DNA from: Gemmata palustris
GTDB taxonomy: Bacteria; Planctomycetota; Planctomycetia; Gemmatales; Gemmataceae
NCBI RefSeq assembly: GCF_017939745.1
Contig: NZ_JAGKQQ010000001.1
Location: forward strand, 5,456,001-5,520,000
Direction of reading: 5' to 3'
Length of the DNA stretch: 64,000 nucleotides
Part shown: positions 27,306 through 62,061 of the stretch, piece by piece
Numbering within the stretch: position 1 is the stretch's first letter
Layout of the letters: the number at the start of each line of letters is the position of its first letter
Notes under the pieces: model-generated
Seen by the model: the letters and a program-made list of their open reading frames with translations, nothing else
Databases searched by the model: none
What the model was told of the DNA's origin: nothing
Program-made: the position numbers and the translations under genes

Positions 27306-29066
27306 ATGTCCGGGCGATACCGAGATTACGCCGTCCTCGTGGCCGTGGCCGCGGCGCTGACACTGCCGAACCTCGGCGCCACGAGCCTGTGGGACGTGGA
27401 CGAGGGAGTGAACGCCGAAGCCGCCCGCGAGATGCGCGAGAACGACACGTGGGTGATCCCGACGTTCAACTACCAGTGCGCACTGCCAAGCCGGTGATGC
27501 TGTACTGGCTCCAGCGCGCCAGCTTCTCCGTCCTCGGGGTAAGTGAGTGGTCCGCGCGGCTCCCGTCGGTGCTAGCAATGTGGCTCACCGCGCTGCTCGT
27601 GTACGAACTGGCGCGCCGCATGTTCGACCGGTCCACGGGTTTGCTCGCGGGGATCGTGTTGGTTTCCGCACTGGAAGTCTGCGTTCTCGCACACGCCGCC
27701 ACGCCCGACGCGACGCTGCTCCTGTTCACCGTCCTCACCTACTACCTGTTCTGGACGCGGCACGAAGGGAACTCGCGCAGGTGGTGGACCGCAACGGCCG
27801 CCGCGTGCGGGTTGGCGGTGCTCACGAAGGGGCCGGTCGGGGTCGCGCTGCCGGGACTGGTGATCCTGCTCTATTTCGCCTGGAACCGCGAACTCGGCCG
27901 GCTACTCGACCGCAAGTTCTTTTGGGCCGCGCTGGGTGTTTCTGTTGGTCGCCGGACCGTGGTACGGGCTCGTCACGGCCGAACGCGCGCGGCGCGTGGG
28001 CAAGCGTTCTTCGGGCGTGAGAACCTTCAGCCGCTCTCGACGCCGATGGAGAACCACCGCGGGCCGTTCTTCTACCACGCGGCCGCGCTCCTGGTGCTCT
28101 TCACCCCGTGGAGCGTGTTCCTACTCGGCGCGCTCTGGTACAGCGTCCGCGCAGCCAGAGCTACCCTCCGTCCGCCCTGCCTGGGAAGGGGAGTTTGCTC
28201 CTTCGCGGTCTGCGGGCGCTGCTTCAGCCTCAGGGTTCGCGCCTGCCCCCCTTCCCTTCAGGCAGGGCGGACGGGGGGTAGGTTCTTCCTCCACCCGCGC
28301 GTTCCGGTTTCTGATCTGTTGGTTCGCCGCGTACCTCGTGTTCTTCTCGGCGGCGGCGACCAAGTTGCCGAACTACGTGCTTCCGGTGTACCCGGCGCTG
28401 GCGATCCTCACGGCCCGGTTCTTGGTGCGCTGGCAGAGCGGCGAACTCGTGCTCCCCAAGTGGCTGATGCCGCTGGCGGTCGGGGCGCTGGTGCTCACGG
28501 CGCTTGTGGTTGGCGGCGGATTGCTCGTTGCAGGTGATGCGGTGAAAGCCCTCCCGAACGGGGCGCGCGTTTCCCGGTTTGGGGCCGTGGGCGGTGGTCG
28601 GCCTCGTGCCGCTGGTTGCGGCGGGTGCGATGGCATGGGCACTCTGAGCGAACGATCGGCAGCGGTTCGTGCGTGCGATGGTGCTCGGCGCGATCGCGTT
28701 CACGGGGTTGACCGCCGCGTTCCCGGCACTTAAGGTCGATGTGTATAAGGGCGCCACGAGAGCTGGTGCGCGCGGGGTCGATGACCCGGCGCGCGAGATG
28801 CGACTCGCGCACCTCGACTGGTTCCAACCGAGTGTTGTGTTCTACGCGCACCGCGAAGTGACGGATCTGAAGTCGGTCGAACAGGCGGCGGAGTTCCTCG
28901 CGGTACCCACGCCCGGTTTTCTGTTCGTGCCTGCAAAGACGTGGGAGCAGTTCGTGGAACCGAAGGTCGCGGTCCCCACGCGAATTGTCGCCCGACACTA
29001 CGACTTTACCGGAACAGCGAGATCATCGTTGTTACCAATGAAGTGACCGCGACCGCCGAGCGGTGA
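27306..29066 (+). CDS. Dolichyl-P-mannose/ArnT-type glycosyltransferase (frameshifted)
   Basis: This is a GT-C membrane enzyme that transfers a sugar from a polyprenyl-phosphate donor. After the start MSGRYRDYAVLVAVAAALTL comes the catalytic loop WDVDEGVNAEAAREM, whose Asp-Glu is the PMT/ArnT signature. Further on are KPVMLYWLQRASFSVLGVS, LTKGPVGVALPGLVILLYF and about ten hydrophobic helices, for example YLVFFSAAATKLPNYVLPVY. The ATG follows GGGAGGAG, a strong site. A palindromic element (28161-28280) sits within the gene. Restoring one base near the end gives NSEIIVVTNEVTATAER and a stop at 29066. Several one-base losses are present. Confidence 0.8.
28161..28280. repeat. Palindromic element inside the glycosyltransferase gene
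   Basis: The left arm (28161-28191) and right arm (28246-28280) share CCGTCCGCCCTGCCTG and a GGGAAGGGG core in inverted orientation. The left arm lacks three bases present in the right. The core CTGAAGGGAAGGGG is the same as in the elements at 59272 and 60224. The reading frame changes within or next to this element. Confidence 0.75.
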
Positions 29067-58860: not shown

Positions 58861-61629
58861 TCACAGCCGCGGGTCGATTGGTTCGCTCTCCAGCGCCAGC
58901 ACCGCGAACACGCACTCGTGAGCTTCGCGCAGAGGCGCGCTGCGGGCGAAGCGCTCCAAGCCTTCGAGTCCGAGTCCGAATTCGCGCGCGGCGAGTCCGC
59001 GTTTCGCGCCGACCGCCCGGTGCTTCAGTCGCGAGAGGTGTTCCGCGGCGAGGTAGTCTGGCCCGTAGATGATGCGCAAATACTCGCGCCCACGGACTTT
59101 CAGCGCCGGTTGCACGAAGAATCGCCGCCCCTGCGTAAGCACTTCGAGCGGCTTTACCACCATCCCCTCGCCGCCCGCGTTCGTGAGATCGAGCCACCAC
59201 TGGGTCGCGGATTCGACTTGGGCCGCGTCCGCGAGATCGACCACGCGGAACGGCGTCGCCAGGAGGATACCGCCCCCCCCGGCCCCCCTCGCTGAAGGGA
59301 AGGGGGAGGGAGACAATTCGCAATCGACAGACATCGCATCAGGTGCAGAGGTTTCGCGCGCCGGCTCCCCCTTCCCTTCAGGGAGGGGGGATGGGGGGGT
59401 CGGTTGCCCCAACTCCGCGAGAGTGCGCATGTGCCAATCGTGGGTGCGGTCGAAGTAGAGTTTGCCCTCGGTGGCGAGCAGGAAGAACGGGGCGAATTTC
59501 AGGTCCGCGACCGAGTTCACCGGCCAACAATACTGTTGGTACGCGGTGGCGAACCGCTCCACGGCTTCCGCCTTCGCCGAGAAACGTGCGCGCAGGTCGG
59601 CGAGTTCTGGTCGCGCAGTCGAGGTTGCCAGGAGCTTGTTAACCTCAGCAAGCGCCGCGGTCGCCGCGCTGCCGGTGGCCGCGTACTGGCGCTTTAAAAG
59701 TTCCTGCGCCTTCGCGGACCACGGCATCAATTCGCCGTCGAGCGCCACCCAATCCGTACCGAACTTCGTCCACCAATCGGCGGCCGTGAGTGCGTCGCGT
59801 ACCAGCGCGAGAAACGCGCCCTCGGTCGCGGGGTCGTCGAAGAACCGCCGACCGGTTCGCGTATAGACGATACCGCTCTCGTTGCTCGCACCAAAGCGCC
59901 GGGCGGCCGCGGCTTCGTCCTTGCACACGATGACGACGGCGCGCGAACCCATGTGCTTCTGCTCGCACACCACGCGGTCCACGCCCTCCTGCTTGTAGTA
60001 CCGGAAGGCTTCCGCCGGGTGCTCCAGAAAATCGGGCAGCGCTGATGCTTCGCACGGTGACATCGTCGGCGGGAGGTAAATCAGCCAGCGCGGATCGGCC
60101 GCAAACCGGGACATCACTTCCAGCGCGGCGGCCGCGTTCTCCTCGCGGATCGTGACCTTCCCTGCGAACCGCGTTTCGATGGTGCGCCGACCGATCACGT
60201 CAGCGAGGTCGAGATCGGAGGAACCTACCCCCCCATCCCCCCTCCCTGAAGGGAAGGGGGAGCAGGCGCGCGCTGTGCTTGAGGACACACTACCTACCCC
60301 AGAGCTTTCTTTCCCCCCCTTCCCTTCAGGGAGGGGGGCCGGGGGGGTAGGTCCAGCCAGCGGGCGCTTCGGCTCCGCGTACTCTTTCTCCGCGGGCACG
60401 TTCACTAACTCTTGTTCCGGGTAGCGCAACGCGGTCAGCGCGCCGCCGAACACGCACCCCGTATCGATGCAAATGCACCGGTTCTCCCACGCGGGTGTGA
60501 GCACCGGCGTGTGGCCGTACACGACGTTCGCACGGGCACGGTAGTTCGCGGCCCAGTTCAGGCGCACGGGCAGCCCGAATTCATCGCTCTCGCCGGTCGT
60601 GTCACCGTAGATCGCGAACGCCCGCGCCTTCCCCGAGAGGCGCCCGTGCATGTCCGCGGTGAGCCCCGCGTGCGCAACGACGAGCCGCCCGCCATCGAGC
60701 ACCAAGTGCGAGGGGAGTTTCACGATGAACTCCTGCACGCGGGCGCGCAGTTCCGGCAGCTCCTTCTCGAACTGCTCCACCGACTGCGCGAGGCCGTGGT
60801 TCAGCTTCACCTTGTCGGGCGTCTTCATCCACCGGAGCAGCTTGTCTTCGTGGTTCCCGAGCACGCAGAACGCGACCCCGCGCTGGACCGCGTCCATGAC
60901 GAGGCGGTACACCCCCGGCGTGTCCGGCCCGCGGTCACACAGATCGCCCACGAAGACGAGCTTGCGCCCCTCCGGGGGCGAGACGCGCCAACCGTCTTCG
61001 CTCGGGGTGAGCGTGTAACCGAGTTTGGCGAGCAGCACGAGCAGCTCGTTCAAGCAGCCGTGAACGTCGCCGATGATGTCGAACGGTCCGCGCTCGTCGC
61101 GCCTGTTCACGGGCAGTCGGTAGCGCTCGAACGTGACCGCGGCGACCTCTTCTTCGCTGTTCAGCACGTGAACGCGGCGGAACCCCTCGTCTTCGAGCCG
61201 CGCCAGCGAGCGCCGGAGGTCTTCCGCGTGGCGCTGGGTGACGTGCGGCCCGAACGGGCGCTCGGCCGCGCGCTGCTGGTTCCGCGCGTGGCACACGTCC
61301 GCGGTGAAGTTGAACGCCACCGCGACCGGCTGAACGTGGTACTTCCGCGCCATTTCGAGGAACGGCTTGCGCGCTTCCGGTCGAACGTTGGTCGCATCGA
61401 TCACGGTGAACTTGCCGCGCGCGAGCCGCTTCGCGCAGATCAGGTGCAGCACCTCGAACGCATCGTCCGACGCGGCCTGGTTCATCTCGTCGTCGCTGAG
61501 CAACCCGCGGAAGAAGTCGGAGGAGAGGATCTCCGTCGGCTTGAAGTGCTTGCGCGCGAACGTGGACTTGCCGGAACCCGATGGGCCGACCATTAGCACG
61601 AGCGCGAACTCCGGGATGTGAATCGTCAT
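58861..61629 (-). CDS. pnkp: Polynucleotide kinase-phosphatase-ligase (Pnkp-type RNA repair)
   Basis: This intact 922-aa enzyme has the three Pnkp modules in order. The kinase has GPSGSGKS at 15-22. The metallophosphatase has GDVHG 187-191, GDLCDRG 228-234 and GNHE 258-261. The adenylyltransferase/ligase has nucleotidyl Lys 558 in KHMGSRA. Pnkp heals and seals broken RNA, normally with the methyltransferase Hen1, which is not adjacent here. Two palindromic elements are translated in frame: about 427-470 in the linker before the ligase, and about 743-788 inside the ligase. They give similar Pro/Gly/Ser-rich peptides. The start ATG 61629 has GAGGAGA about 11 bases upstream. Confidence 0.9.
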   Translation of the reverse strand: MTIHIPEFALVLMVGPSGSGKSTFARKHFKPTEILSSDFFRGLLSDDEMNQAASDDAFEVLHLICAKRLARGKFTVIDATNVRPEARKPFLEMARKYHVQPVAVAFNFTADVCHARNQQRAAERPFGPHVTQRHAEDLRRSLARLEDEGFRRVHVLNSEEEVAAVTFERYRLPVNRRDERGPFDIIGDVHGCLNELLVLLAKLGYTLTPSEDGWRVSPPEGRKLVFVGDLCDRGPDTPGVYRLVMDAVQRGVAFCVLGNHEDKLLRWMKTPDKVKLNHGLAQSVEQFEKELPELRARVQEFIVKLPSHLVLDGGRLVVAHAGLTADMHGRLSGKARAFAIYGDTTGESDEFGLPVRLNWAANYRARANVVYGHTPVLTPAWENRCICIDTGCVFGGALTALRYPEQELVNVPAEKEYAEPKRPLAGPTPPAPLPEGKGGKESSGVGSVSSSTARACSPFPSGRGDGGVGSSDLDLADVIGRRTIETRFAGKVTIREENAAAALEVMSRFAADPRWLIYLPPTMSPCEASALPDFLEHPAEAFRYYKQEGVDRVVCEQKHMGSRAVVIVCKDEAAAARRFGASNESGIVYTRTGRRFFDDPATEGAFLALVRDALTAADWWTKFGTDWVALDGELMPWSAKAQELLKRQYAATGSAATAALAEVNKLLATSTARPELADLRARFSAKAEAVERFATAYQQYCWPVNSVADLKFAPFFLLATEGKLYFDRTHDWHMRTLAELGQPTPPSPLPEGKGEPARETSAPDAMSVDCELSPSPFPSARGAGGGGILLATPFRVVDLADAAQVESATQWWLDLTNAGGEGMVVKPLEVLTQGRRFFVQPALKVRGREYLRIIYGPDYLAAEHLSRLKHRAVGAKRGLAAREFGLGLEGLERFARSAPLREAHECVFAVLALESEPIDPRL
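59272..59403. repeat. Translated palindromic element, copy within Pnkp ligase domain
   Basis: The left core GCTGAAGGGAAGGGGGAG (59291-59308) is mirrored by CTCCCCCTTCCCTTCAG (59365-59381), and G/C-rich flanks extend both arms. It is read in the minus direction as a Pro-rich stretch (PTPPSPLPEGKGE) and then a Ser/Pro/Gly-rich stretch (SPSPFPSARGAGGGG), with no shift of frame. Confidence 0.85.
60224..60351. repeat. Translated palindromic element, copy between Pnkp phosphatase and ligase
   Basis: The left arm starts CCTACCCCCCC and contains CTCCCTGAAGGGAAGGGGG. The right arm is its near-perfect inverse, ending GGGGGGGTAGG at 60351. It is read in the minus direction as PTPPAPLPEGKGG, a variable centre, then SPFPSGRGDGGVGSS. 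The frame is kept. Confidence 0.88.
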
Positions 61630-62061
61630 GAGCGAAGAAATCTCCTCGGTCCGGCCCGCGCCGGCGGCCCTCCCCAATTCAAGGCGAGGGGAAGACAGAT
61701 GGACCCGGCACCAGTTGCGCGGGTTCGCGGACGCAATTCAGGCGTAGCGCAAAAGCGCAAGCGAGAGTTCGCTCCGACCACATGAATACATTTCTTCCGC
61801 GATCGTTAACGCCACTAAACACCGCGCAAATGGCCAGAACGGTTTGTTCATAAAGCGGTACTCTCAACTCCCACCTCACATTCGCGCAAATCCTTTATTC
61901 CGAGTGTGTTATGTCGCAATCCAGTGTGTAGGCCGTGCTCGCAAGGGCGACGGCATCACGTGTGCTAATCATCACAACGCAAAGAATCGGCTCAGGCCCA
62001 ATTATCGGTGCCAACCGGTCCCCTCGACACCGGCCACCGACGCACCAGGAGTTTCACTCTA
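61630..62061. other. Intergenic region between divergent genes
   Basis: This region of 432 bases lies between the Pnkp start and the PEP-CTERM gene. AT content rises around 61790-61990. I see no ORF, hairpin or strong promoter consensus that I can support. Confidence 0.5.

Follow-up and report, generated by a model that had tools for sequence, protein, structure and literature searches.

Repetitive extragenic palindrome (REP) doublets, known as REPINs, consist of two inverted REP-like units around a spacer and are mobilized by REP-associated tyrosine transposases (RAYTs). Rickettsia palindromic elements (RPEs) are palindromes of 100-150 bp, many of which lie in frame in unrelated genes at solvent-exposed places (PMC2229807; PMC10969869; PMC3767692, citing Ogata 2000, 2002), and a review from 2024 regards such a process as "conceivable" in other prokaryotes (PMC10969869). 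Correia elements, for which terminal inverted repeats and target duplications have been tabulated, occur in a 107-bp and a 155-bp form, one being fused into genes and the other almost wholly intergenic (PMC2229807). REPs are defined as mainly extragenic (PMC12306157). GTAG/CGTC-tagged intragenic REPs, chiefly of Opitutus terrae, are short palindromes and dimers within genes of known function; the 2013 paper that describes them lists intragenic REPs of several species, already proposes a location in flexible linkers or loops, and does not name Gemmata in its main text (PMC3733652). Here, we describe F1, a family of ~132-bp palindromes in Gemmata palustris, two copies of which lie in the gene for the RNA-repair enzyme Pnkp within a 64,000-nt stretch of contig NZ_JAGKQQ010000001.1 (positions 5,456,001 to 5,520,000; hereafter, the window). 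F1 is very probably a mobile palindrome that is tolerated in proteins as a translated linker. No paper describing this family was found in searches of the open-licence literature on palindromic elements of planctomycetes, Gemmata, or Gemmataceae, which fits the suggestion of an earlier sequence-only reading that the element may be undescribed in this lineage.

The Pnkp gene and the parts of its two palindromes are located in the window as follows:

58861-61677, minus strand: gene for Pnkp with kinase, phosphatase, and ligase parts, which carries both F1 elements; intact open reading frame (ORF) of 938 aa with Pfam families
60222-60353, minus strand: F1 copy 1, 132 bp, in the phosphatase/ligase linker, read as GPTPPAPLPEGKGGKESS..ACSPFPSGRGDGGVGS
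60223-60262, plus strand: outer arm of copy 1
60313-60352, minus strand: second arm of copy 1, inverted
59268-59405, minus strand: F1 copy 2, 138 bp, in a loop of the ligase domain, read as QPTPPSPLPEGKGEPARE..SPFPSARGAGGGG
59269-59308, plus strand: outer arm of copy 2
59365-59404, minus strand: second arm of copy 2, inverted

The sequence-only reading had placed two palindromes here, translated in frame within an intact ORF of 922 residues, one between the phosphatase and the ligase and the other inside the ligase. Both elements were found where it had put them, and each is open in the Pnkp frame and would be read as a palindrome peptide. The length of 922 residues fits a start at the ATG, which lies 16 codons further in than the TTG from which 938 aa are counted. 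The two locations agree with the Pfam matches, AAA_33 (26-160), Metallophos (198-392), and PNKP_ligase in two stretches (best 517-758), and with the alignment to the solved chain 4drf, in which just 6 residues (286-291) separate two aligned blocks at the site of copy 2. The arms that enclose the variable middle of the two palindromes are 40 nt long with 90% complementarity and 53 nt long with 83%. Folded as RNA, the two copies have predicted energies of -105 and -90 kcal/mol, which correspond to z scores of -9.3 and -7.0 vs. shuffles. An AlphaFold2 model of Pnkp, built with 45 of the 68 orthologues introduced below, has a mean predicted local distance difference test score (pLDDT) of 83.7 and a predicted template modelling score of 0.52. 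Its segments below 50 are the two inserts (model residues 440-485 for copy 1; 760-793 and 797-800 for copy 2) and the protein ends, so that predicted disorder of an F1 insert is seen for Pnkp only.

The core 14-mer of the arm, CTGAAGGGAAGGGG, occurs in the window in both arms of both Pnkp copies and in one lone arm (28248-28261); with ≤2 mismatches there are 5 matches against 0.39 expected, a number reached in 0 of 100 shuffles. Throughout the 9.23 Mb genome, the exact core has 54 matches (26 forward, 28 reverse), and a reversed control pattern has 0. In the full element, a drifting middle of ~50 bp is enclosed by an arm of ~41 nt, AACCTACCCCCCCGTCCCCCCTCCCTGAAGGGAAGGGGGAG, and a second, inverted arm with the reverse complement; the ends of the element are AACCTACC..GGTAGGTT and the whole is ~132 bp long. 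Among 18 copies found by regular expression, some of them outside the set tested below for location in genes, the usual lengths with the terminal A and T included are 132 bp (n = 9), 138 bp (n = 4), and 135 bp (n = 1), all multiples of three, and four copies have other lengths. A second copy in the genome is 96% identical to the Pnkp linker copy, and the match stops within ~4 bp of the element ends. In a short-arm form, the distance from end to core is 2-4 bases shorter and G4 stands in place of G5. By eye, each arm has GTAG at its outer end, separated from the small stem. Of the 19 genomes of the genus, 14 contain F1, that of G. palustris among them; with a stricter cut-off applied to the family, F1 occurs in 22 of 95 genomes and 7 of 39 genera.

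Location in genes was examined for 50 F1 sites collected from this genome, a set in which diverged copies may be absent. A codon-usage model was applied to 180 bp on each side, and a site passed when both sides had the same best frame and the element was stop-free. The model was trained on 26 host calls from a smaller model, with the tested locus left out for these 50 sites; the tests of the sister genome (G010) and of the families F2 and F4, both introduced below, ran without leave-one-out on loci that were not in the training set, except for some controls. One frame continues on both sides and stop-free through the element at 31 of the 50 sites, while three (L011, L022, L064) have the same frame with stops and 16 have differing frames. 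If only the long-arm sites with the same frame on both sides are considered, 25 of 26 are stop-free, the exception being L011. All 31 in-frame sites encode PLPEGKG.., ..PFPSGRG.., a near variant, or an F2-type equivalent. They represent 28 distinct ORFs, 27 of which have a Pfam family (the exception is L070), and the hosts include RecO, RsmB, SelB, MnmE, KdtA, an E2 acyltransferase, penicillin amidase, aldehyde dehydrogenase, ABC transporters, and AMP-binding enzymes. Several inserts lie between domains, namely NusB/methyltransferase, RecO_N/RecO_C, lipoyl/E3-binding, and two UPF0261 domains. In the sister genome, 22 of the 33 best-scoring F1 places pass the same test, all in like register, and 18 of the 20 host ORFs scanned (out of 22) have a Pfam family (E 1e-6). 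One ORF of more than 1600 aa (L084; FabA, ketoacyl-synthase, acyltransferase) contains two F1 arms ~1.4 kb apart, both in frame. The arm pair was considered as the ends of an autonomous parent and rejected, as both arms lie within this one FabA/ketoacyl-synthase/acyltransferase ORF; no transposase lies between these arms, and a genome-wide search for a parent insertion sequence was not made.

Comparison with orthologues indicates that the Pnkp stretches were inserted. Of 80 Pnkp loci, 69 entered a survey of loop and linker lengths and 68 passed, one of which (L211) belongs to the same genus. The ligase loop has 49 residues here vs. 5-16 in the 68 orthologues, and the linker has 49 residues vs. 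17-35. Ten of the 11 loci outside the survey are from Hymenobacter, and the eight that are stop-free, all Hymenobacter, have ligase loops of 8-13 and linkers of 28-56 residues. Relatives with a short ligase loop are G010, G011, G018, G020, G025, G026, and G092, and those with a loop of intermediate length are G019 and G090; in G015 and G022, a palindrome of the family F4, unrelated to F1, occupies the same place. Genomes from other genera of the family (G027, G038, G051, G094) lack both inserts. The linker of G. palustris (G000) and that of the sister genome carry an element at the same site in opposite orientation, and among 39 copies compared, the nearest relative of the former is a copy in its own genome (96%), while that of the latter is the copy in the SelB gene of G010 (92%). 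The two linker copies may be separate insertions, the product of conversion by another copy, or the result of inversion plus drift. Sixteen further hosts, chosen by hand from the 28, were compared with four relatives; all except an ATP-grasp host could be aligned, and in 14 of these 15, one or more of the relatives were seen by eye to have a palindrome-type peptide at the corresponding position, the sole exception being a tetratricopeptide repeat (TPR) host. G011 often has a short loop at host insert sites, most cleanly in KdtA. The stretches would have been old domain parts if other Gemmataceae Pnkp proteins carried them with conservation like that of the flanks, and the orthologues contain no such conserved parts. 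The proposal of an inserted and tolerated mobile palindrome is thus supported, in that the ligase copy is absent from close relatives and the linker is occupied by a different copy.

Two further observations were made on Pnkp genes elsewhere. Three Hymenobacter linkers (L255, L283, L287) contain unrelated, translated exact inverted repeats of 15, 12, and 18 bp, vs. maxima of 11, 10, and 10 bp in 200 shuffles each, and a fourth linker (L259) has no repeat. Hymenobacter belongs to the Bacteroidota, so that palindromes may settle in the Pnkp linker in more than one phylum. The Pnkp gene of G009 (L092) consists of four ORF pieces that lie in three frames, and palindromic arms occur among the breaks. 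The cause may be a broken gene or assembly errors in G/C runs, and G009 is therefore of little use for the Pnkp comparison.

The flanks of the inserts are under purifying selection. Between G. palustris and the sister genome, the ratio of nonsynonymous to synonymous substitution rates (dN/dS) of Pnkp is 0.09 in the kinase-phosphatase part and, for the ligase, 0.115 and 0.048 on the two sides of the loop insert; the flanks in KdtA, SelB, ATP-grasp, and sulfatase hosts give 0.05-0.29. Inside the Pnkp linker element, the ratio is 0.72. Across 16 full-length F1 copies (13 among the 31 in-frame sites; L002, L004, and L013 lie outside), the arms are conserved and the middle is not, and no codon-position constraint on the peptide was found, with diversities of 0.314/0.320/0.339 at positions 1/2/3 (p 0.18). 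The suggestion in the sequence-only reading that the peptide is used as a linker consequently lacks support where a functional role is meant, no constraint having been found at the peptide level. These results also bear on an alternative in which the insert has been recruited, its length as a linker or its mRNA/DNA hairpin being selected for host function. Recruitment could account for the renewed occupation of the same loops in related species and for arms that remain conserved and paired, but it is unlikely given the missing codon-position constraint, the short or empty loops at the same sites in some relatives, and hosts that are functionally unrelated.

The form of the arm and the family of the palindrome both separate elements by location. 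Among the F1 sites of this genome, 25 of 33 with long arms are in genes, as compared to 0 of 8 with short arms (Fisher p 1.3e-4) and 6 of 9 mixed ones. F2 is a heterodimer of two different arms with many matches in G000, G009, and G010; it is read as NPLTPFPKKEGG..LSPSPFRGGVGEGL or the reverse, and its two orientations encode two different Pro/Gly-rich peptides, both open (e.g., L070:2566-2692). Twelve of 18 sampled F2 sites are in genes, the sample being the best 24 listed places in this genome minus 6 already within F1 loci. F4 (arm CTCTCCCGCAAGGGGAGAGGG), with 67 arms in this genome and 200 in G022 (≤1 mismatch), forms mostly inverted pairs ~105 bp apart in this genome (e.g., L308-L327). 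By the same test, only 2 of 21 sites here and 3 of 22 in G022 are in genes (21 of the listed pairs of this genome, plus 22 on contig C2 of G022), so that F4 is mostly extragenic in the sample and the test is able to return a negative. F1 and F2 both differ in this respect from F4 of the same genome (Fisher p 5e-5 for F1). That F1 is an ordinary extragenic repeat of the REP/REPIN type, its read-through an accident of stop-poor, GC-rich DNA, has little probability. Such a repeat would resemble F1 in its two inverted short palindromes and its lack of target duplications, long overlapping ORFs are common in the GC-rich window, and a match to the transposase family Y1_Tnp is present in 13 of the 14 F1 genomes of the genus. 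Yet Pfam families are present in all but one of the 28 host ORFs, in many of them to the left and right of the insert, both flanks have a low dN/dS in each of the five hosts tested, F4 gives only 2 of 21 in the same test, and the sister genome has many F1 copies with no Y1_Tnp match.

It is more improbable still that the element is never translated, either because splicing removes it from the mRNA or because the ribosome passes over the hairpin. The very stable hairpins of the Pnkp copies could favour skipping; skipping, however, requires no open frame, yet all same-frame long-arm sites apart from L011 are stop-free and the usual lengths keep the reading frame. The idea that the inserts are old parts of the Pnkp fold can practically be dismissed: several relatives have something long at the linker, with 42-56 residues in some Hymenobacter, and G019 and G090 have intermediate ligase loops, but the ligase loop is short in all 68 surveyed orthologues, both inserts are missing in the four genomes from other genera (the ligase insert also in 4drf), and the stretches of relatives differ in sequence or orientation.

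Full-length long-arm F1 copies have a further property, as the register PTPPSPLPEGKGE..SPFPSGRGxGGVGS is open on both strands. An isolated arm has two open frames per strand. In 27 of 39 full-length long-arm copies (16 from this genome, 23 from G010), exactly one frame is open on each strand, that of the PLPEGKG register; in 11 others, a further frame is open on at least one strand, and one strand of L015 is closed. In a late addition to the analysis, which skipped 4 of the 39 copies with an unrecognised core and used shuffles that ignore codon structure, the register was open on both strands in 35 of 35 copies, whereas copies with shuffled middles gave a mean of 12.3 and a maximum of 24 in 2000 shuffles. 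Since only one strand is usable at each site, openness on both is not explained by the local host gene alone, and owing to this openness, peptides of one kind result whichever way the element is oriented. Uniformity of frame was also considered as a sign of selection on the peptide and was dropped for full-length copies, as only one frame per strand is open in 27 of 39. We put at about even the chance that long-arm F1 is a coding-adapted selfish palindrome with one mild, soluble register open on both strands, for which genes would be the main habitat and either orientation would be harmless, and which, together with F2, would re-invade the same housekeeping-enzyme loops across the genus and drive the evolution of protein length. 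This reading gains probability from the openness of the register in 35 of 35 copies, the unused strand included.

Several results weigh against F1 as a mobile palindrome tolerated in genes. No target-site duplication of ≥3 bp was found (0/18 copies), and no mobilizing enzyme for F1 was found. Y1_Tnp (PF01797) is matched in 13 of the 14 F1 genomes of the genus. The kinship among F1 copies makes the shuffles overstate their independence, and the same-register reading of full-length copies is largely due to stops in the other frames. Random controls pass the in-gene test at differing rates, 132/400 spans in one set, 322/1000 spans and 423/1000 points in the window, and 203/312 spans at locus ends; the F1 count of 31/50 differs from the window points (p 0.008) and is similar to the locus-end spans (p 0.75). 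Because these controls disagree, enrichment of F1 in genes over random positions is not claimed. F1 does not avoid genes, and no claim is made that it seeks them. With respect to a mobilizer, none of the three Y1_Tnp matches in this genome has neighbouring F1 arms, and L089 has two weak arms ~3 kb away. The sister genome, a single contig with 98% completeness, has many F1 copies with no Y1_Tnp match, and in G014, G015, and G022, Y1_Tnp is present and F1 is absent. Mobilization by a RAYT is therefore doubtful and less likely, but retains some probability given how many F1 genomes do have a match.

The most probable mode of working is as follows. F1 would be a small, non-autonomous, selfish palindrome that inserts both in genes and between them and is presumably transposed in trans by some enzyme. 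The spacing of its arms is such that PLPEGKG precedes PFPSGRG in both orientations. If it inserts in phase into a loop or interdomain linker, it would add ~44 soluble, disordered residues rich in Pro, Gly, and Ser, which the host protein would tolerate and the cell would probably translate, to judge from the open frames. Insertions in the wrong phase or elsewhere would presumably be purged. The lone arm of the window may exemplify this other, disruptive outcome:

28244-28284, minus strand: lone F1 arm at a change of best codon frame, within a gene judged by eye to be glycosyltransferase-like

At this arm, the best codon frame switches from +1 to +2. The arm may have disrupted the gene on insertion, the gene may have decayed, or the assembly may contain an indel in a G/C run.

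Among the described systems, RPEs and the intragenic REPs of Opitutus terrae and others are closest to F1. As with RPEs, a palindrome of usually 132-138 bp is present at 50 collected sites, it lies by sequence in frame in genes for unrelated conserved proteins (31/50 sites; Pfam 27/28), and, for Pnkp only, its location is predicted to be unstructured (pLDDT < 50). The likeness in size, in-frame reading, and predicted unstructured location was drawn from descriptions of RPEs, and the Rickettsia parallel of the sequence-only reading holds for the mode of working. F1 differs in its host, a planctomycete with a 9.2 Mb genome, and in coexisting with a mostly extragenic palindrome family and with a short-arm form not seen in genes. 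F1 resembles REPINs in having two inverted units around a middle, but its sites are mostly in genes (31/50 and 22/33), no RAYT gene flanked by the element was found in this genome, and the sister genome lacks a Y1_Tnp match. Correia elements are alike in that one length form is genic and the other almost wholly intergenic, and differ in the target duplications described for them; the absence of such duplications (0/18) also sets F1 apart from miniature inverted-repeat transposable elements of DDE insertion sequences. The Opitutus REPs share with F1 palindromes and dimers inside genes and a host of the same superphylum. They are 20-40 bp long and mostly between genes, in contrast to the ~132 bp, single peptide register, and 31/50 sites in genes of F1.

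Translated palindromes are best known from Rickettsia, and here one family is found in 28 ORFs of a 9.2 Mb genome, a pattern that is repeated in the sister genome. Pro/Gly-rich F1 stretches should not be read as domains. Since the mostly extragenic F4 and short-arm F1 occur in the same genome, the factors that permit a genic life (frame, length, peptide, or target) are directly testable, and orthologous loops with and without inserts constitute ready-made deletion experiments. If the coding-adapted reading is true, F1 would be a natural mobile linker contributing to the evolution of protein length in a free-living phylum.

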